In this document: in pieces, positions 5,794-14,925 of the stretch
How positions within the stretch are numbered: position 1 is the first letter of the stretch
Layout: every line of letters begins with the position of its first letter
NCBI RefSeq assembly: GCF_000260115.1
Contig: NZ_JH651379.1
Location: 3,374,240 to 3,438,239 of the forward strand
Reading direction: 5' to 3'
Length of the DNA stretch: 64,000 nt
Source: Galbibacter orientalis DSM 19592
Lineage (GTDB): Bacteria > Bacteroidota > Bacteroidia > Flavobacteriales > Flavobacteriaceae
Translations under genes and position numbers: made by a program
Notes under the pieces: generated by a model
The model's database searches: none
Told to the model about the DNA's origin: nothing
Seen by the model: the letters and a program-made list of their open reading frames with translations, nothing else

Positions 5794-7173
5794 TTACCTT
5801 AACTTTTCTAAGATTTTTATCCATTTCATTTTTTTGGAATAAGGAGCGTATCTTAAGGGAATATCAAGCCATGTGCCTCTTCTTACAACCGACTTATGAT
5901 GTGAGAAAACATCAAAAGTTAAATCGCCATGATATGCACCAATGCCACTATGTCCAACACCTCCAAAAGGAAGACGCTTATTTAAAAAATGGACTATAGT
6001 GTCGTTTATTACGCCTCCACCATAGGAGAATTGTTTCATTATTTTATTAGAAAATTGCCTTCTATTGGAGAAAACATATAAAGAAAGGGGTTTTTCATAT
6101 GAGGTGATGATACTTTGGATTTCTTCTTCTGAATTATAACTAATAATAGGAAGTAAAGGGCCAAAAATTTCCTCTTTCATAAGATCGCTTTCTAAGCTTG
6201 GTTCATTTATTAAGGTTGGAGAAATATAGCAATCGGTTTTATCAATAACTCCTCCAAAAGCAATGTCTTCATTATTAATTAATTTAGAAAGTCTGTCGAA
6301 ATTATTTTTATTTACAATTCTAGGATAATCAGAAGAATTTTTTGGATTTTCAGAATAAGCAGCTATTATTTCATTTTTTAAATGCTGAATTAATTTGTCT
6401 TTAATATTAGAGGCAACTAAAATATAATCTGGTGCAATACATGTTTGTCCGCCATTAAGAAACTTACCCCAAACAATTCTTTTTGCTGCTTGCTTTAATT
6501 TTGCAGTTTCATCAATAATACATGGGTTTTTACCTCCTAATTCCAAGCTTACAGGAGTTAGGTGCTTTGCCGCCGCTTGATATACTATTTTTCCTACTTG
6601 CGGACTCCCAGTAAAAAATATGTAATCCCAACGTTCTTGTAGGAGAGCTGTAGAAATATCTTTATCTCCTTGAACTACACTTACATAATTTTCTGGAAAT
6701 ACAGCTTTTATGATTTCTGAAATAATAGTAGCTGTATTTGGAGTTAATTCAGAAGGTTTAATAATAGCAGTATTCCCTGCGGCAATAGCTCCAATTAAGG
6801 GAGAAATGGCTAATTGAAAAGGGTAATTCCATGGTGCAATAATTAATACAGTTCCATAAGGTTCTTTTATAATTTTAGCAGAAGAAGGAAAGTTAATGAG
6901 TGATGCGCTTATTGTTTTTTCTCGTGTCCAAGAATGAATTTTTTTTATGGCATCGTTTAACTCCCCTAAAATATATTGAGTTTCGCTTAATAAGGTTTCA
7001 AATTCCGATTTTTTAAAATCAGCATACAAGGCATCACAAATGTCTTTTTCTCGGTTTTTAATCTCCGATTTTAGTCTTTTGAGAATATTTTTCCGAGTAG
7101 GCACATCCTTTGTAAAACCTTTATTATAAAACGATTTCTGAGCATCTATAAGCTTCTTAATGTCACTTTTCAT
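5794..7173 (-). CDS. Aldehyde dehydrogenase, class 3-like
   Basis: 459 residues. Oxidises aldehydes to acids with NAD(P). The nucleotide-binding motif FFTGSPQVGK is at about 187-195, the general base Glu211 in LELGGKNPC, and the nucleophile Cys245 in NGGQTCIAPDY. The short N-terminus and the C-terminal LPFGGVGHSGIGAYHGDLTF with a hydrophobic/basic tail match class 3 (fatty aldehyde) ALDHs, whose usual length is 450-480. It stands alone on the minus strand, diverging from the ilv leader with only 57 bp between their starts. The natural substrate is not evident from context. Confidence 0.9.
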   Translation of the reverse strand: MKSDIKKLIDAQKSFYNKGFTKDVPTRKNILKRLKSEIKNREKDICDALYADFKKSEFETLLSETQYILGELNDAIKKIHSWTREKTISASLINFPSSAKIIKEPYGTVLIIAPWNYPFQLAISPLIGAIAAGNTAIIKPSELTPNTATIISEIIKAVFPENYVSVVQGDKDISTALLQERWDYIFFTGSPQVGKIVYQAAAKHLTPVSLELGGKNPCIIDETAKLKQAAKRIVWGKFLNGGQTCIAPDYILVASNIKDKLIQHLKNEIIAAYSENPKNSSDYPRIVNKNNFDRLSKLINNEDIAFGGVIDKTDCYISPTLINEPSLESDLMKEEIFGPLLPIISYNSEEEIQSIITSYEKPLSLYVFSNRRQFSNKIMKQFSYGGGVINDTIVHFLNKRLPFGGVGHSGIGAYHGDLTFDVFSHHKSVVRRGTWLDIPLRYAPYSKKMKWIKILEKLR

Positions 7174-7230
7174 TTATAGTATTGTAAAAAAAGTTTTTTC
7201 AAGTTAGAAATTATATCTAATATTGTAGTA

Positions 7231-7293
7231 ATGAACAAGCAAATAATTAATATCATTTCTATTCAAGTCGCAGTGATTATTCCACTGGGATAG
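7231..7293 (+). CDS. ilv operon leader peptide 1 (20 residues)
   Basis: ATG at 7231 to TAG at 7291-7293 encodes MNKQIINIISIQVAVIIPLG: 7 Ile, 2 Val and 1 Leu in 20 residues, exactly the end products of the operon downstream. It is immediately followed by an antiterminator arm and a strong intrinsic terminator (7322-7349), the architecture of ribosome-mediated attenuation. There is no clear Shine-Dalgarno, as usual in this phylum; a near-consensus -7 box TAATATTG lies at 7218-7225, but its spacing would leave almost no 5' leader, so the promoter is uncertain. Confidence 0.82.
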   Translation: MNKQIINIISIQVAVIIPLG

Positions 7294-7349
7294 GGAAGGA
7301 GTGTATATTATTAAATATAGCAAGCCTTCCTTTTTGGAAGGCTTTTTTT
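7294..7349 (+). promoter_or_regulatory. Attenuator 1 (antiterminator and terminator)
   Basis: The terminator stem AAGCCTTCC (7322-7330) pairs with GGAAGGCTT (7336-7344) over a T5 loop and is followed by a T-run. The competing arm GGAAGG (7294-7299) starts one base after the leader stop codon and can pair with CCTTCC (7325-7330), extended by G-U and A-U pairs to eight. A ribosome that finishes at the TAG would cover this arm and let the terminator form. A ribosome stalled on upstream Ile/Val codons would leave it free to antiterminate. The pairings are read directly from sequence; the regulatory logic is inferred from classical ilv attenuation. Confidence 0.78.
7322..7349 (+). terminator. Intrinsic terminator of attenuator 1
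   Basis: Perfect 9-bp stem (AAGCCTTCC/GGAAGGCTT), 5-nt loop, followed by seven T residues. It lies 28 bp after the leader peptide stop. Confidence 0.88.
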
Positions 7350-7447
7350 ATACCACTAAGTGGTTTTATGTTCAAGATTTTGGGGAGAAATAAATTAAAT
7401 ATTTTTCATTTAAAAAATCTAAGCATATAGATGTAAAAAGAAACAGT

Positions 7448-7498
7448 ATGAAACAAAACATAATTATAGTCATTAGTATTATTATGAACTCCATTTGA
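7448..7498 (+). CDS. ilv operon leader peptide 2 (16 residues)
   Basis: ATG at 7448 to TGA at 7496-7498 encodes MKQNIIIVISIIMNSI: 7 Ile and 1 Val in 16 residues. It is shorter and more purely Ile-rich than leader 1. It is again followed at once by an antiterminator arm and a terminator (7521-7558). The repeated arrangement makes chance unlikely. It is the second of two leader peptides in series upstream of ilvD. Confidence 0.8.
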   Translation: MKQNIIIVISIIMNSI

Positions 7499-7499
7499 G

Positions 7500-7558
7500 T
7501 TGATACAATTGCTATGATTAAAAAAAGCCTGTATCAATGCTAGATACAGGCTTTTTTT
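7500..7558 (+). promoter_or_regulatory. Attenuator 2 (antiterminator and terminator)
   Basis: The terminator stem GCCTGTATC (7527-7535) pairs with GATACAGGC (7543-7551), extended by six A-T pairs. The competing arm TTGATACA (7500-7507) begins two bases after the leader 2 stop codon and is perfectly complementary to TGTATCAA (7530-7537), which spans the 5' arm and loop of the terminator. The geometry matches attenuator 1, with an 8-pair antiterminator placed where a terminating ribosome would mask it. Confidence 0.78.
7521..7558 (+). terminator. Intrinsic terminator of attenuator 2
   Basis: 9-bp GC-containing stem (GCCTGTATC/GATACAGGC) plus flanking A6/T6 pairs, 7-nt loop, T-tract. From 7559 to the ilvD start (7795) there is AT-rich leader with only a loose TTTAGGAC/GTCCTAAA inverted repeat (about 7592-7645). 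Confidence 0.88.
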
Positions 7559-7794
7559 ATTTCTGATAATGATATAATAAACTTTTAAAAATTTAGGACA
7601 AAACAAGTATAAATTCATAAAATAAAGGCGTTGAATGTCCTAAAAAAATGTATTTAAATAATTGATTATCAGCACAATAGTTATTTATAAAGAAGATTGG
7701 ATTTAAAGTTAAAAAGGAAATAAGGGAAAAATTAGAAAAACAATAGTATAATTTTGAATAATATTAAATAATACTCGAAAATTTAACATATAAA

Positions 7795-9477
7795 GTGAAT
7801 TTAAAAAAATTTAGTCACCAAGTAACACAAGACCCAACGCTACCAGCTGCACAAGCAATGTTACATGCTTTGGGCTTAACTGATGAAGATTTACAAAAAC
7901 CCTTTGTAGGTATTGCTAGTACAGGTTATGAGGGGAATCCTTGTAACATGCATCTAAACGATTTAGCAACCCATGTTAAGAAAGGAACAGAAAATGCCAA
8001 TTTAGTCGGACTCATTTTTAACACCATAGGAGTTAGTGATGGAATTTCTAATGGAACACCAGGAATGCGTTTTTCATTACCATCAAGAGATATTATTGCA
8101 GATTCTATGGAAACTGTAGTAGAGGCAATGAGTTATGACGGATTAGTAACTGTAGTTGGGTGTGATAAAAATATGCCTGGAGCCTTAATGGCGATGTTGC
8201 GTTTAAACAGACCCTCTGTGTTGGTTTATGGAGGTACAATAGCTTCAGGATGTCATAACGGTAAAAAGTTAGATATTATTTCTGCTTTTGAAGCTTATGG
8301 ACAGAAAGTAGCTGGAACTATAGATGAATCTGAATTTAAAGAAGTAGTACATAAAGCATGCCCTGGAGCAGGTGCTTGTGGAGGAATGTATACCGCAAAC
8401 ACAATGGCTTCTGCTATTGAAGCTTTGGGGATGTCGTTGCCATTTAATTCTTCCAATCCAGCAGTTAGTAACGGAAATATAAAAGAAGAAGAATGTGTTA
8501 AGGCAGGGGAAGCGCTACGTTATCTTTTAGAAAATGATATAAAACCTTCGGACATTGTTACAAAACAGTCTTTAGAAAATGCTTTTAGACTTGTTACAGT
8601 TTTAGGAGGTTCTACCAATGCAGTACTTCACTTTTTGGCAATAGCTAAATCAGCTAAAATAGATTTTACTTTAGAAGATTTTAAAAGAATAAGTGATAAT
8701 ACTCCTTTACTTGCCGATTTAAAACCAAGCGGTAAATACTCAATGGAAGATTTACATGCAATAGGAGGGATTCCTGGAGTGTTAAAATACATGCTTGAGA
8801 ATGATATGTTGCATGGTGATTGTTTAACTGTTACTGGTAAAACTTTAGCTGAAAATTTAAAAGATGTTCCTAATTTAATTGAAGGACAAGATATTATAAG
8901 AACCCTAGATAAGCCAATTAAAGATACTGGTCATATTCGTATACTTTTTGGAAACCTAGCAACAGAAGGCGCAGTAGCAAAGATTACTGGAAAAGAAGGG
9001 TTGTCATTCACAGGACCTGCAAATGTTTTTGACAGTGAAATTGCCGTAAATGAGGGGATTAAAACTGGAAAGGTAAAAAAAGGCGATGTAGTGATTATTC
9101 GTTACGAAGGTCCTAAAGGAGCACCAGGAATGCCAGAAATGCTTAAACCAACTTCTTCTATTATGGGTGCTGGATTAGGAAAAGAGGTAGCTTTAATTAC
9201 TGACGGACGTTTCTCTGGAGGTTCTCACGGTTTTGTAGTTGGACATGTAGCTCCAGAAGCTCAAGTAGGAGGAAATATTGCCTTGGTTGAAAATGGAGAT
9301 ATTATTGCAATAGATGCAGTAAACAATACCATTAACATAGAAATTTCTGACGATGAATTAGCAGAAAGAAAATCAAAATGGAAAGCCCCAGCATTAAAAG
9401 CTACAAACGGAGCATTATATAAATACGCTAAAACGGTTTCTTCTGCCTCAAAAGGGTGCGTTACCGATGAATTTTAG
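7795..9477 (+). CDS. ilvD: Dihydroxy-acid dehydratase
   Basis: 560 residues. Dehydrates 2,3-dihydroxy acids to 2-oxo acids, the step before transamination in Ile/Val synthesis. Fe-S ligand cysteines are visible at 50 ([13 protein letters not shown]), 123 (GCDKNMPGA) and 195 ([15 protein letters not shown]); [15 protein letters not shown] and the C-terminal [16 protein letters not shown] are also family hallmarks. The start is GTG; translation from it gives [20 protein letters not shown], which aligns with the usual IlvD N-terminus. First structural gene of the operon, behind the double attenuator; ilvB follows after 59 bp. Confidence 0.97.
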
Positions 9478-9536: not shown

Positions 9537-11270
9537 ATGGAAGTAAAGACATTGAAAAAAGAAGAAAGTAAGACCGGAACTAAGATTAGAATTTCGGGTG
9601 CTGAAGCAGTAATACACTGTTTGTTAGCCGAAGGCATTGAAACTATTTATGGATATCCTGGAGGAGCCATAATGCCAATTTACGATGAACTTTATAAATT
9701 TAGAGATAAGCTTCATCATGTATTAACAAGGCATGAGCAGGGTGCTACGCACGCTGCACAGGGTTATGCTAGAGTTTCTGGTAAAGTAGGGGTGGCAATG
9801 GCTACTTCTGGACCAGGAGCTACTAACTTAATTACTGGAATTGCAGATGCTCAAATAGATTCCACTCCAATGGTCTGTATTACAGGTCAAGTTGCTCGTC
9901 ATTTATTGGGTTCTGATGCTTTTCAGGAAACCGATATCGTTGGAATATCAACACCAGTAACTAAATGGAACTATCAAATTACAGAGGCTTCTGAGATACC
10001 AGAAATTATGGCAAAAGCATTTTATATTGCTAAATCTGGTCGCCCAGGTCCTGTTTTGGTAGATATTACCAAAAATGCACAATTTGAGGAGTTTGATTTT
10101 GATTATCAAAAATGTACTGCTATTCGTAGTTATACTGCAAATCCAACCTTAAACCCTTCTAAAATTGAAGAAGCAGCAGCATTAATTAATAGTGCTAAAA
10201 AACCTATGATTGTTTGGGGACAAGGAATTATTTTAGGAAAAGCAGAGGAAGAATTAAAATCTTTTGTTGAGAAATCTGGAATTCCCGCAGCTTGGACTAT
10301 TCTTGGGGCTTCTGCCTTGTCATCTTCACATCCATTAAATGTAGGAATGGTAGGGATGCACGGAAATTATGCGCCAAATGTATTGACAAACGAATGTGAT
10401 TTGCTAATTGCTTTAGGAATGCGATTTGATGACCGGGTAACGGGCGACTTATCTACTTATGCAAAGCAAGCTAAAGTGATACATTTTGAGATTGATCCTG
10501 CCGAAATTAATAAAAATGTGCATGCAGATGTACCTGTTTTAGGAAATGTAAAAGAAACTTTAAGTGCCTTATTGCCTTTGGTGAAAGAAAATAAACACGA
10601 AGCATGGCATAATGAGTTTAAAGACCGCTATAAAATAGAGTTTGATAAGGTTATTAAAAACGATATTCACCCAGAGAAAGAAGGTTTAACAATGGGAGAA
10701 GTTATCGAACAAATAAATATAGCCTCCAATCATGAAGCTGTAATTGTATCAGATGTGGGTCAGCATCAAATGATTGCGTGTAGATATGCAAAATTTAATA
10801 CTTCTAAAAGTAATATTACTTCTGGGGGATTAGGAACAATGGGATTTGCACTTCCTGCTGCAATTGGAGCAAAAATGGGAGCTCCAGAAAGACAAGTTGT
10901 AGCTATTATTGGAGATGGTGGGTACCAAATGACTATTCAGGAGTTGGGAACTATTTTTCAAACTAAAGTTCCAGTAAAAATAGTGGTATTAAATAACGAA
11001 TTTTTAGGAATGGTTCGCCAATGGCAACAGTTGTTTTTTGATAAGCGTTATGCTTCTACAGAAATGACTAATCCAAATTTTGTAGCCATTGCTGAAGGAT
11101 ACCATATTCAAGCTAAAAAAGTTACCAAAAGAGAAGATTTAGAAGCAGCAGTTAAAGAAATGATGGCATCTCCAGATGCTTATTTCTTAGAAGTTGGTGT
11201 AGAAAAAGAAGATAATGTGTTTCCGATGATTCCTACAGGAGCTTCGGTTTCAGATATTCGTTTAAGTTAA
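9537..11270 (+). CDS. ilvB: Acetolactate synthase large (catalytic) subunit
   Basis: 577 residues. TPP-dependent condensation of pyruvate with pyruvate or 2-oxobutyrate. The catalytic Glu67 is in RHEQGATHAAQGYARVSGK, the central FAD/DHS-like domain spans about 205-345, and the TPP motif starts IIGDGGYQMTIQELG and ends VVLNNEFLGMVRQWQQ. The N-terminal extension of about 15 charged residues before IRISGAEAVIHCLL is not unusual. It pairs with ilvN downstream; the 153-bp gap contains only short degenerate GTTTGTAAAG-like repeats. Confidence 0.97.
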   Translation: MEVKTLKKEESKTGTKIRISGAEAVIHCLLAEGIETIYGYPGGAIMPIYDELYKFRDKLHHVLTRHEQGATHAAQGYARVSGKVGVAMATSGPGATNLITGIADAQIDSTPMVCITGQVARHLLGSDAFQETDIVGISTPVTKWNYQITEASEIPEIMAKAFYIAKSGRPGPVLVDITKNAQFEEFDFDYQKCTAIRSYTANPTLNPSKIEEAAALINSAKKPMIVWGQGIILGKAEEELKSFVEKSGIPAAWTILGASALSSSHPLNVGMVGMHGNYAPNVLTNECDLLIALGMRFDDRVTGDLSTYAKQAKVIHFEIDPAEINKNVHADVPVLGNVKETLSALLPLVKENKHEAWHNEFKDRYKIEFDKVIKNDIHPEKEGLTMGEVIEQINIASNHEAVIVSDVGQHQMIACRYAKFNTSKSNITSGGLGTMGFALPAAIGAKMGAPERQVVAIIGDGGYQMTIQELGTIFQTKVPVKIVVLNNEFLGMVRQWQQLFFDKRYASTEMTNPNFVAIAEGYHIQAKKVTKREDLEAAVKEMMASPDAYFLEVGVEKEDNVFPMIPTGASVSDIRLS

Positions 11271-11423: not shown

Positions 11424-11954
11424 ATGGAAGAAAATAAAACATATACGATATCGGTTTATTCTGAAAATAACGTAGGATTATTAAATAGAATATCAGGAAT
11501 ATTCTTAAAGAGACACATTAATATAGAGAGTCTAAATGTTTCTAAATCAGAGATTGAGGATGTTTCTAAATTTACAATTGTTATTTATTCTACGGAAGAT
11601 TGGGTACGTAAAATTGTAGGTCAGATTGAAAAACAAATTGAAGTTATTAAAGCGTATTATCATACAAATGAAGAAACTATTTTTCAGGAGTCAGCTTTGT
11701 TTAAAATAGCTTCTAATTTGTTGTTTGATGAACGTCAGATTCAGAATATTATAAAAGATAATCATTCAGAAATTGTAACTGTTTCTCCAGAGTTTTTTGT
11801 GATTTCTAAATCGGGAAGACGCGAAGAAATTGAAGAGATGTACGAACAGTTAAAGCCATATGGGATTATGCAATTTGTACGTTCTGGGAGAATTTCAGTC
11901 TCTAAATCAGAAATGCAAATTTCTAATATTTTAAAAGAATTTCAATATCAATAA
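11424..11954 (+). CDS. ilvN: Acetolactate synthase small (regulatory) subunit
   Basis: 176 residues, typical of the IlvH/IlvN size class. The N-terminal ACT domain YTISVYSENNVGLLNRISGI (about 7-75) binds valine for feedback inhibition, and the C-terminal domain (about 85-165) activates the catalytic subunit. It follows ilvB and precedes ilvC. Family membership is clear; valine sensitivity is known for the family, not shown here. Confidence 0.95.
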   Translation: MEENKTYTISVYSENNVGLLNRISGIFLKRHINIESLNVSKSEIEDVSKFTIVIYSTEDWVRKIVGQIEKQIEVIKAYYHTNEETIFQESALFKIASNLLFDERQIQNIIKDNHSEIVTVSPEFFVISKSGRREEIEEMYEQLKPYGIMQFVRSGRISVSKSEMQISNILKEFQYQ

Positions 11955-12090: not shown

Positions 12091-13560
12091 ATGGCAAATT
12101 ATTTTAATACACTTTCACTTAGACAACAATTAGAGCAATTGGGAGTATGTGAATTTATGGATATTTCAGAATTTAGTGATGGTGTAGAAAAGTTAAAAGG
12201 TAAAAAAGTAGTAATTGTAGGGTGTGGTGCTCAAGGGCTTAATCAAGGGCTTAATATGAGAGATTCTGGATTGGATGTTTCCTATGCATTACGTGAAGGG
12301 GCAATCAAAGAAAAAAGACAATCTTTTGTAAATGCATCAGAAAATGGATTTACAGTAGGGACTTATAAAGAGTTAATTCCTACAGCCGACTTAGTTTGTA
12401 ATCTTACGCCAGACAAGCAACATACAGATGTGGTAAGTATTATTATGCCTTTAATGAAAAAAGGAGCTACTTTATCTTATTCTCACGGATTTAATATTGT
12501 TGAAGAAGGAATGAAAATTCGTGAAGATATTACCGTAATTATGGTGGCACCAAAATGTCCTGGTTCAGAAGTTAGAGAAGAATATAAAAGAGGTTTTGGA
12601 GTTCCTACTTTAATAGCGGTACACCCAGAGAATGATCCAGAAGGAAAAGGATTAGAGCAAGCTAAAGCTTATGCTGCTGCAACTGGTGGACATAAAGCAG
12701 GCGTATTGCGTTCTTCTTTTGTTGCAGAAGTAAAATCTGATTTAATGGGAGAACAAACCATTCTTTGTGGTCTTTTACAAACTGGTTCTATTCTATCTTT
12801 TGATAAAATGGTAGAAAAAGGAATCGACCCTGGATATGCTTCAAAATTAATTCAATACGGATGGGAAACTATCACAGAGGCTCTTAAATATGGTGGGATT
12901 ACCAATATGATGGATCGTTTGTCAAATCCTGCTAAAATTGAAGCTTTTAAAATTTCAGAAGAATTAAAAGAAATTATGCGTCCGCTTTTCCAAAAACATA
13001 TGGACGACATTATGAGTGGCCATTTTTCTAAAACAATGATGGAAGATTGGGCTAACGACGATAAAAACTTACATACTTGGAGAGCTGCAACTGGAGAAAC
13101 TGCTTTTGAAAAAACACCAGCAGCAGATGTTGCTATCTCTGAGCAAGAGTACTTTGACAATGCGGTGTTGATGGTAGCTTTTGTAAAATCAGGAGTTGAA
13201 TTAGCTTTCGAAACGATGACTGAAGCCGGAATTATTGAAGAATCAGCATATTACGAATCGTTACACGAAACACCGCTTATTGCAAATACCATTGCGAGAA
13301 AGAAATTATTTGAAATGAATCGAGTAATTTCTGATACAGCAGAGTATGGATGTTATTTATTCGATCATGCATGTAAACCATTATTAACCGATTTTATGAA
13401 AAAGGTTGATACTAATATTATTGGCAAGCCTTTTTCAAATACAAATGGAGTTGATAATAAGGAGTTGATAGAAATTAACGATCAAATTCGTAATCACCCT
13501 GTAGAAGAAGTAGGAGCTTGGTTGCGTACTTCTATGACAGCTATGAAAAAGATTGTTTAA
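12091..13560 (+). CDS. ilvC: Ketol-acid reductoisomerase, class II (long form)
   Basis: 489 residues, the long class II form known from E. coli and plants rather than the 330-residue class I. Isomerises and reduces acetolactate or acetohydroxybutyrate with NADPH. The dinucleotide motif [14 protein letters not shown] is at about 40-53, a basic residue follows at the 2'-phosphate site ([14 protein letters not shown]), and the Mg-binding motif [16 protein letters not shown] is present. The duplicated C-terminal knotted domain accounts for the extra length. Central gene of the operon. Confidence 0.96.
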
Positions 13561-13662: not shown

Positions 13663-14925
13663 ATGGAAACAAAAACAGTTTACATGCCAACATTAGAAAA
13701 TGTAAGAAAAGCTGCTGCTACCCTCAATGGGGTTGCAGCAGTTACGCCTTTAACACATAGCCTAAGATATTCTAAAGAGTTTGATGCTAATATCATGCTC
13801 AAAAGAGAAGATTTGCAAGTAGTACGTTCTTATAAAATTAGAGGGGCATATAATAAAATTAGTTCGCTAACTAAAGAAGAAAGAGAAAAGGGAATTGTAT
13901 GCGCTTCCGCAGGAAATCATTCTCAAGGAGTAGCTTTTTCTTGTAAAGAACTTAAAATTAAAGGTACTATTTACATGCCAGCTCCCACGCCTCAACAAAA
14001 AATTGAGCAAGTACAAATGTTTGGAGAAGACTATATAGACATTGTTTTAGAAGGAGATACCTTTGATGATGCTTATAAGGCGGCAATGACAGAATGTAAA
14101 CGCGTTGGAAAAACATTTGTACATCCTTTTGATGATGAAAAAGTTATTGAGGGACAAGCAACAGTTGGTCTTGAAATTTTAGAACAGACAAAAAAGAGGA
14201 TTGATTATGTTTTTGTAGCCATTGGTGGGGGTGGATTGGCTTCTGGATTGGCAAGTGTTTTTGATGTTCTTTCTCCGCAAACTAAAATTATTGGGGTAGA
14301 ACCTATGGGGGCTCCTTCTATGAAAACTTCGCTTCAGAATAAAAAAAATACAGAGCTACAAGAGATTGATAAATTTGTGGATGGCGCTGCAGTTCAACGT
14401 GTGGGAGACCGTACCTTTGCTATTTGTCAGCAATTATTAGATGAAATGATTACGGTTCCAGAGGGAAAGGTTTGTCAGGAAATTTTAGATTTATACAATA
14501 AAGATGCAATTGTTGTAGAGCCAGCAGGCGCTTTAACTCTTTCTGCTTTAGAACAATTTAAAGATAAGCTGAAAGGTAAAAATGTTGTTTGTGTAGTAAG
14601 TGGGAGTAATAACGATATTACGAGAACTGCGGAAATAAAAGAGCGAGCTTTATTATACGCAAATTTAAAACATTATTTTATTATTCGTTTTCCTCAGAGA
14701 GCAGGAGCTTTAAAGGAGTTTGTTGCTGAAATTTTAGGGCCAACGGATGACATCACTCACTTTCAGTATACCAAAAAAAATGCGAAAGAAAACGCTCCAG
14801 CAGTGGTGGGGATTGAGTTGAAAAATCCATCCGATTTAGATCCGCTAATTGAACGAATGAAATCTAAAAATTTCTTTGGAGAGTATTTAAATAATAAACC
14901 AGACCTTTTTCAATATTTGGTATAA
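13663..14925 (+). CDS. ilvA: Threonine dehydratase (threonine ammonia-lyase)
   Basis: 420 residues. PLP-dependent deamination of threonine to 2-oxobutyrate, committing carbon to isoleucine. Lys58 in RSYKIRGAYNKI binds PLP; AGNHSQGVAF and the phosphate loop AIGGGGLASGLA are present. A C-terminal ACT-like domain (about 335-420, HYFIIRFPQRAGALKEFVAE) indicates the allosterically regulated biosynthetic form with one regulatory domain, shorter than E. coli IlvA with two. Last ilv gene in the run. Confidence 0.95.
   Translation: METKTVYMPTLENVRKAAATLNGVAAVTPLTHSLRYSKEFDANIMLKREDLQVVRSYKIRGAYNKISSLTKEEREKGIVCASAGNHSQGVAFSCKELKIKGTIYMPAPTPQQKIEQVQMFGEDYIDIVLEGDTFDDAYKAAMTECKRVGKTFVHPFDDEKVIEGQATVGLEILEQTKKRIDYVFVAIGGGGLASGLASVFDVLSPQTKIIGVEPMGAPSMKTSLQNKKNTELQEIDKFVDGAAVQRVGDRTFAICQQLLDEMITVPEGKVCQEILDLYNKDAIVVEPAGALTLSALEQFKDKLKGKNVVCVVSGSNNDITRTAEIKERALLYANLKHYFIIRFPQRAGALKEFVAEILGPTDDITHFQYTKKNAKENAPAVVGIELKNPSDLDPLIERMKSKNFFGEYLNNKPDLFQYLV

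Follow-up and report, generated by a model that had tools for sequence, protein, structure and literature searches.

The ilvD gene of Galbibacter orientalis DSM 19592 is preceded by what are very probably two complete ribosome-mediated transcription attenuators, which would act in turn on RNA from a promoter ahead of the first leader peptide. The window (the whole stretch of DNA analysed, 64,000 nucleotides of contig NZ_JH651379.1) carries both units directly ahead of their cognate biosynthetic operon, with the gene order ilvD-ilvB-ilvN-ilvC-ilvA. Our comparison with relatives suggests that serial ilv attenuation is a real and recurrent form of a classical mechanism, and a new one.

Two leader units ahead of the ilv operon

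About 620 nt separate ilvD from a divergent aldehyde dehydrogenase-like gene, and this spacer contains two units, each with an Ile/Val-rich ORF and, behind it, an intrinsic terminator. The features of the locus are:

5794-7173, minus strand: aldehyde dehydrogenase-like gene, divergent from ilvD
7218-7225, plus strand: promoter-like –7 box TAATATTG, one mismatch to the Bacteroidota TAnnTTTG, from the sequence
7231-7293, plus strand: leader peptide 1 (type A), MNKQIINIISIQVAVIIPLG, stop TAG; an ORF with similar leaders in relatives
7258-7300, plus strand: 1:2 hairpin of unit A, spanning leader end, stop and arm, from folding and covariation
7291-7300, plus strand: segment 2 of unit A, antiterminator arm TAGGGAAGGA, beginning at the stop codon
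7322-7349, plus strand: terminator 1, segments 3:4 at 7322-7344 and U run to 7349, from the terminator scan and type-A pair types
7449-7499, plus strand: leader peptide 2 (type B), MKQNIIIVISIIMNSI, stop TGA, from the sequence and second units in relatives
7484-7506, plus strand: core of the unit B 1:2 hairpin, AACTC/GAGTT, reaching into GATA of the arm, from folding and covariation
7501-7508, plus strand: segment 2 of unit B, antiterminator arm TTGATACA, with 8 exact pairs
7519-7558, plus strand: terminator 2, segments 3:4 with U run, from the terminator scan and alignment pairing
7749-7756, plus strand: promoter-like box TAATTTTG, a TAnnTTTG between terminator 2 and ilvD; candidate gate-independent promoter P2
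7795-9477, plus strand: ilvD, first gene of the controlled operon (NCBIfam match)
9537-11270, plus strand: ilvB (NCBIfam match)
11424-11954, plus strand: ilvN (NCBIfam match)
12091-13560, plus strand: ilvC (NCBIfam match)
13663-14925, plus strand: ilvA (NCBIfam match)

A first-pass annotation, made from the letters of the window, had described two short ORFs rich in the products of the operon, each followed by an antiterminator arm and a strong terminator. Both ORFs are where it had placed them: leader 1 has 7 Ile, 2 Val and 1 Leu among 20 residues (10/20 Ile/Val/Leu) and leader 2 has 7 Ile and 1 Val among 16 (8/16). Both terminators were found as well, and the arms match them. In unit A, TAGGGAAGGA pairs with GCCTTCCTTT (7324-7333) in a duplex of –11.9 kcal/mol, and in unit B, TTGATACA pairs with TGTATCAA (7530-7537) over 8 exact pairs at –12.4 kcal/mol; when arm and terminator are swapped between the units, the duplexes reach only –7.3 and –2.7 kcal/mol. 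That description was incomplete, in that it missed a covarying 1:2 hairpin. Folding the RNA present before segment 3 is made yields in each unit a hairpin that includes the stop codon together with the last part of the leader and a large share of the arm (fold z=–3.3 in unit A, with 7/10 arm bases paired upstream; fold z –2.0 in unit B in the window). This extra hairpin gives each unit segments 1-4 of the classical attenuator, and the inclusion of the stop codon fits translation. As read from sequence, both units are thus complete four-segment attenuators of the trp/ilv kind.

The units are not what chance would supply at this locus. Four terminator-like sites lie in 6800-7800, against 0.2 expected from shuffles; besides the two terminators, these are the minus-strand reading of the first and, at 7352, a hairpin of 5 bp. 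Of 400 sequences drawn from a first-order Markov model of the 620 nt ahead of ilvD, 16 contained a comparably rich ORF at all and none contained even one full unit, defined as a rich ORF plus a terminator of –10 kcal/mol or better.

TAnnTTTG is the –7 promoter element of Bacteroidota. The related box TAATATTG ends 5 nt ahead of the leader-1 ATG, so that RNA started there would carry almost no 5' untranslated stretch before leader 1, or none (a leaderless start). A sigma-70 promoter scan returned 7 sites against 6.2 expected and was uninformative. Closer to ilvD stand two conserved blocks, GTTGAATGTCCTAAAAA at 7630-7646 (~163 nt before the gene) and TTGGATTTAAAG at 7697-7708 (~98 nt before), both kept in the Galbibacter-group loci L001-L006 and L011, with GTTGAATGTCCTAAAAA altered in L005.

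Recurrence and covariation in Flavobacteriaceae

We collected 30 + 80 ilvD loci, of which 105 were distinct after removal of five duplicates (L033, L041, L042, L076 and L078). Two unit types prevail: type A, with the stem GCCTTCC and leaders like MNKQIINIISIISVVIISQR, and type B, with the stem CTGTATC and leaders like MKYIVNIIIIAIINSS. Nineteen of the 105 loci have A and B, 15 have A only (14, and L083 with an additional chance ORF call), 16 have B only and 49 have no unit, the last being an upper limit, with L001-L030 read over 1500 nt upstream, L082 over 430 and L108 over 66. Units with other stems account for the rest, two units in 2 loci (both Aquimarina) and one unit in 4 (L109 doubtful). 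L093 and the second unit of L081 pass a looser unit rule and fail the stricter one used for these counts; the chance "X" ORF of L083 and the L109 unit were left out of the unit set, and L109 was kept in the downstream-box groups described below. A or B alone is thus about as common as the pair, and the IlvD tree does not distinguish gain of units from loss. In 49 junctions, B never stands ahead of A. The A+B pair lies ~1.2-1.7 kb ahead of ilvD in eight loci (L009, four Tenacibaculum, Gelidibacter L053, Kordia L058 and L085), in most of which an ORF of some 295-300 aa, taken to be ilvE, intervenes. In Aquimarina (L080, L081 and L101), tandem Ile/Val leaders are accompanied by other stems (CCCTTT, CCCTTC), the second unit of L081 being weak; serial gating would thus exist with other stem sequences.

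The first-pass annotation had named Flavobacteriaceae ilvD upstream regions as the place to check for conserved Ile-rich ORFs, antiterminator pairing and covarying stems. Both leader types recur there, the 2:3 pairing is conserved, and the stems covary. In the type-A alignment (22 of 25 type-A units; L008, L056 and L103 omitted), the 1:2 core has 30 two-sided cells against 10.1 in shuffles, with 0/500 as high and at most 9 when slid. In the type-B alignment (26 of 27 type-B units; L100 omitted, L022 begun at an inner ATG), the 1:2 helix has 27 against 10.5, again with 0/500 as high and at most 9 when slid, and the terminator has 98.7% of its cells paired and 7 two-sided cells against 1.1 (0/500). 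The type-B 2:3 antiterminator is paired in 92.3% of cells, against 14-45% when slid, and covaries little (5 two-sided cells against 2.4, 16/500 shuffles; score matched in 12/500), as expected where one arm serves several helices. The structures tested for B came from the sequence of the window itself, and those for A from an RNAalifold run on the very alignment that was scored, a choice that tilts the pairing figures in their favour.

Pair types in the terminators (65 A, 55 B) and in 53 B hairpins were read from each unit's own fold and hence with a bias to pairing; at least 4 arm bases are paired upstream, in the 1:2 hairpin, in 46/65 A and 55/55 B units. In the full set of non-identical units (65 A, 55 B, 8 C and 10 other; 138 in all), the mean duplex of an arm with its own terminator is –10.0 for A, –13.4 for B, –15.5 for C and –9.5 kcal/mol for the others, against –5.2, –6.4, –6.5 and –5.1 kcal/mol for shuffled arms. 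The arm beats 95% of its own 50 shuffles in 45/65 A, 45/55 B, 8/8 C and 5/10 other units, leaving 20/65 A and 10/55 B arms below that mark. Arms also pair better with their own terminators than with those of other types.

The leaders themselves carry a coding signal that differs in strength between the types. Changes between similar leaders fall on the three codon positions as 69/65/113 in type A (23 pairs; third-position bias p=3e-5) and 34/43/55 in type B (12 pairs; p=0.03). Ile/Val/Leu was lost at 47/258 codons in type A, against 61/194 changes elsewhere, and at 27/118 in type B, hardly below the 22/85 elsewhere. On these counts the coding signal is clear for A leaders and weak for B leaders, and the third-position bias lends indirect support to translation of the leaders.

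To gauge how common the arrangement is, we searched one set of 349 Flavobacteriaceae genomes with covariance models built on type B (R1) and type A (R2), at E≤0.001. R1 matched 85 genomes and R2 111, and ilvD was present at E≤1e-150 in 273. Adjacent A and B matches on one strand occur in 33 of the 349 genomes, spanning 27 genus codes by hand count, a tally in which some weaker partners have E of a few 1e-4 and from which strict filters may have kept others. A model-free scan for ORF plus terminator found at least two units in 29 of 30 of these regions, with one unit in L182 (genome G146); the remaining three genomes (L001, L004 and L005) had been read in the locus-by-locus unit scan. Three units in a row are present in three of the 30 scanned regions (L171, L172 and L173, from G145, G312 and G357). 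By eye, the triples stand ahead of an ilvE-like gene and then ilvD (the ilvE-like ORF has only 124 aa in L283), and since their last two units are alike in leaders and stems, the array seems to grow by duplication. The arrangement is therefore not peculiar to the source genome: tandems recur across the family, and three examined genomes have three units. Among 148 genomes of a phylum sample, other families gave weak matches (at most 45 bits for R1 and 58 for R2), and ten such stretches comprised, by the unit scan, five single ilvD attenuators, one tandem, one thr-type leader and three without any.

Gates probably in series and a possible bypass

Whether the two attenuators (gates) are passed by the same transcript depends on where transcription starts. 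Over 49 junctions, the median gap between a terminator and the following ATG is 18 nt, with 39 gaps of 8-35 nt and the remaining 10 of 38-316 nt. With 35 nt or less, the second leader could have a promoter of its own only if that promoter overlapped the terminator before it. The box TA(N2-3)[AT]TTG, at most 22 nt before the ATG, is found at 48/89 first units (41/89 have no strict box) and at 1/49 later units. A looser box, [AT][AT]TTG, is found at 59/89 first and 12/49 later units, with ~11% expected by shuffling. The loose box also follows position within a single type, at 9/16 B units that are first or alone against 7/39 B units that come later (Fisher p=0.008). Such little room, together with a box nearly confined to first units, suggests one transcript through both gates, and in most relatives examined the gates would, on this evidence, lie in series.

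In the window the gap is 103 nt, and the series argument is weaker there than in relatives. It is conceivable, if unlikely, that leader 2 has its own promoter in this gap, so that transcripts would pass one or two gates and the series would not be strict. The length of the gap, the 10/49 junctions of more than 35 nt and the loose box at 12/49 later units would allow it; the 39 short junctions, the near absence of the strict box from later units and the depletion of the loose box at later B units speak against it, and neither of two box patterns tried finds a promoter box within the 103 nt. Less probable still is a single functional gate beside a relic that is being lost. A-only and B-only relatives are common, and the close relative L003 is A-only with a short Ile/Val-bearing ORF behind its terminator, maybe a remnant of B. 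Against this, both window units are intact in leader, 1:2, 2:3 and 3:4 with matching arms, adjacent A and B matches extend over 27 genus codes, and the 1:2 hairpins of both types covary. That another sensor (a T-box, riboswitch or protein) controls the operon, with Ile-rich ORFs as by-products of AT-rich sequence, is hardly credible: Ile codons are AT-rich and the B-leader coding signal is weak, but an Rfam search of the whole window at the gathering threshold gave one tRNA as its sole match, with no T-box and no described RNA ahead of ilvD, no Markov sequence held a unit, and the 1:2 hairpin includes the stop codon, fitting translation.

Two ribosome-mediated attenuators in series, as first proposed, thus remain the favoured reading, with conserved ORFs and covarying stems in relatives behind it. 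The accompanying statement that two gates must both be passed would apply to transcripts from the upstream promoter and needs qualifying for others, as a conserved TAnnTTTG box lies downstream of both gates (7749-7756). Within –66 to –35 of ilvD this box is present in 23/47 loci whose unit immediately precedes ilvD (0.8 expected), in 0/9 with units further up, ahead of the ilvE-like gene (0.1 expected), and in 12/48 without a unit (1.0 expected). Its conservation suggests that some transcription bypasses the gates, and TAATTTTG may be a second promoter that escapes both. A TTG-type –33 element upstream of the box shows no enrichment (4/23 against 2.5 expected). By eye, TGTTAAA is common upstream in many B-only loci.

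The first-pass annotation had also proposed hierarchical sensing, leader 1 reading Ile, Val and Leu and leader 2 mostly Ile. In 42 A-first tandem loci, first leaders average 6.5 Ile, 2.6 Val and 1.3 Leu, and second leaders 6.4 Ile, 1.8 Val and 0.4 Leu; Val is missing from 1 first and 6 second leaders, and Leu from 10 and 28. Ile is therefore equal in both leaders and Val somewhat different, which does not favour a hierarchy; both gates would sense mainly Ile, then some Val. Leucine sensing by leader 1 is unlikely as well, since the sole Leu codon of the window leader is the penultimate one, so near the stop that a ribosome stalled on it should mask the arm rather than free it.

Valine codon usage in the leaders is unusual. 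GTC makes up 155 of the 285 Val codons in A and B leaders (L001-L210), whereas its share is 2.3% in 34 ORFs of the window and 10.9% in ilvD of the retrieved loci, and 103 of the 155 are followed by ATT. The only tRNA-Val genes among 45 tRNA matches have the anticodon UAC, in two copies (ARAGORN left two stretches unnamed). The idea that leaders choose the Val codon hardest to read was held back, because GTCATT can, by eye, also pair with the B-only arm; the GTC excess could reflect codon-based sensing or RNA pairing.

Proposed mechanism and relation to known systems

From this anatomy we infer the following mechanism. Transcription would start at the promoter just ahead of leader 1. A fast-reading ribosome would halt on the stop codon and cover segment 2, and the 3:4 terminator would form; a ribosome stalled at Ile (or Val) codons would open the 1:2 hairpin and free segment 2 for 2:3 pairing, letting the polymerase continue; and with the leader untranslated, 1:2 would form and termination would be favoured. 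As the polymerase would pass gate A and then gate B before reaching ilvD, the read-through fractions should multiply and the range should be wider than with one gate, to which the box downstream of both would probably add a gate-independent floor.

Single attenuators of this four-segment build are classical. The enterobacterial trp, his and ilv systems, Listeria rli60 and Corynebacterium glutamicum ilvBNC are alike with the present units in having a cognate-rich leader, 1:2, 2:3 and 3:4 pairings and a cognate operon, but they have one attenuator each, unlike the two or three complete ones in series here. Vitreschak et al. in 2004 reportedly predicted branched-chain attenuators in Bacteroidetes, and are not known to have described a tandem arrangement. 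Of the other systems, the Listeria rli60 (ilv-leu) attenuator is laid out in segments 1-4 (PMC5864092) and that of C. glutamicum ilvBNC in a three-hairpin model (PMC11857589). The closest parallel in two-part layout is the Salmonella mgtCBR leader RNA, whose two short ORFs, mgtM and mgtP, each govern transcription into the operon; it senses two signals (ATP and proline), with an additive effect and stem-loops unlike intrinsic terminators (PMC3641672). The ilv units share with it the two short ORFs in one leader RNA that govern the same operon, and differ in that both have intrinsic terminators and would respond to the same amino acids, with effects predicted to multiply. Tandem T-box and contiguous riboswitches likewise repeat expression platforms before one operon (PMC12452182), and T-boxes sense tRNA charging (PMC7583486). 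Unlike the ilv units, T-boxes and riboswitches bind tRNA or ligand directly, with neither leader peptide nor ribosome. In a Bacteroides thetaiotaomicron transcriptome, sORFs reminiscent of attenuation leaders are reported, with no word beginning "ilv" in the accessible portion of the text (PMC7366714). Among the titles, abstract beginnings and passages of the open-licence literature, no description of serial leader-peptide attenuators of an amino-acid operon was found.

A wider reading, on which we are evenly divided, is that serial attenuation is a standing design of branched-chain amino acid operons in Flavobacteriaceae, possibly ancestral, with gates that are retained, lost or duplicated as modules (A, B, A+B, A+C+C), multiplied repression and a downstream promoter as the floor. 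If this is true, RNA gates alone would give a range for which other bacteria combine a repressor with a single attenuator. The range of attenuation, a textbook switch, is limited, and serial gates would probably multiply its strength. The E. coli trp attenuator leaks 10-15% (PMC1183508); if leaks multiply, with independence assumed and this trp value, two gates would leak ~1-2% and three ~0.1-0.3%. Because the number of gates ahead of these genes varies naturally among relatives, from one to three, the multiplication is directly measurable, and the ilv leaders give Bacteroidota a clear set of RNA-regulation targets. They also raise the question of why range is built by a repeated gate instead of an added repressor.

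Leaders for other operons, or in other families, were noted along the way. In the source genome, a His-codon pattern occurs at 31 places, against 11 in a reversed control, and no his leader with a terminator was found at the 8 of these that were examined. In another family, the tandem of locus L277 stands ahead of ilvE-like and ilvD-like genes. In L278 (genome G401), from another family of the class, the Thr/Ile-rich leader MYNSTIIITIIITTGRNLAEE and a terminator precede an aspartokinase-like gene, by its look a thr-type attenuator. Finally, in L282 (genome G368) a tandem pair of Ile-rich attenuators lies ahead of an ACT-domain-like gene (ilvN-like, by eye), not ilvD.
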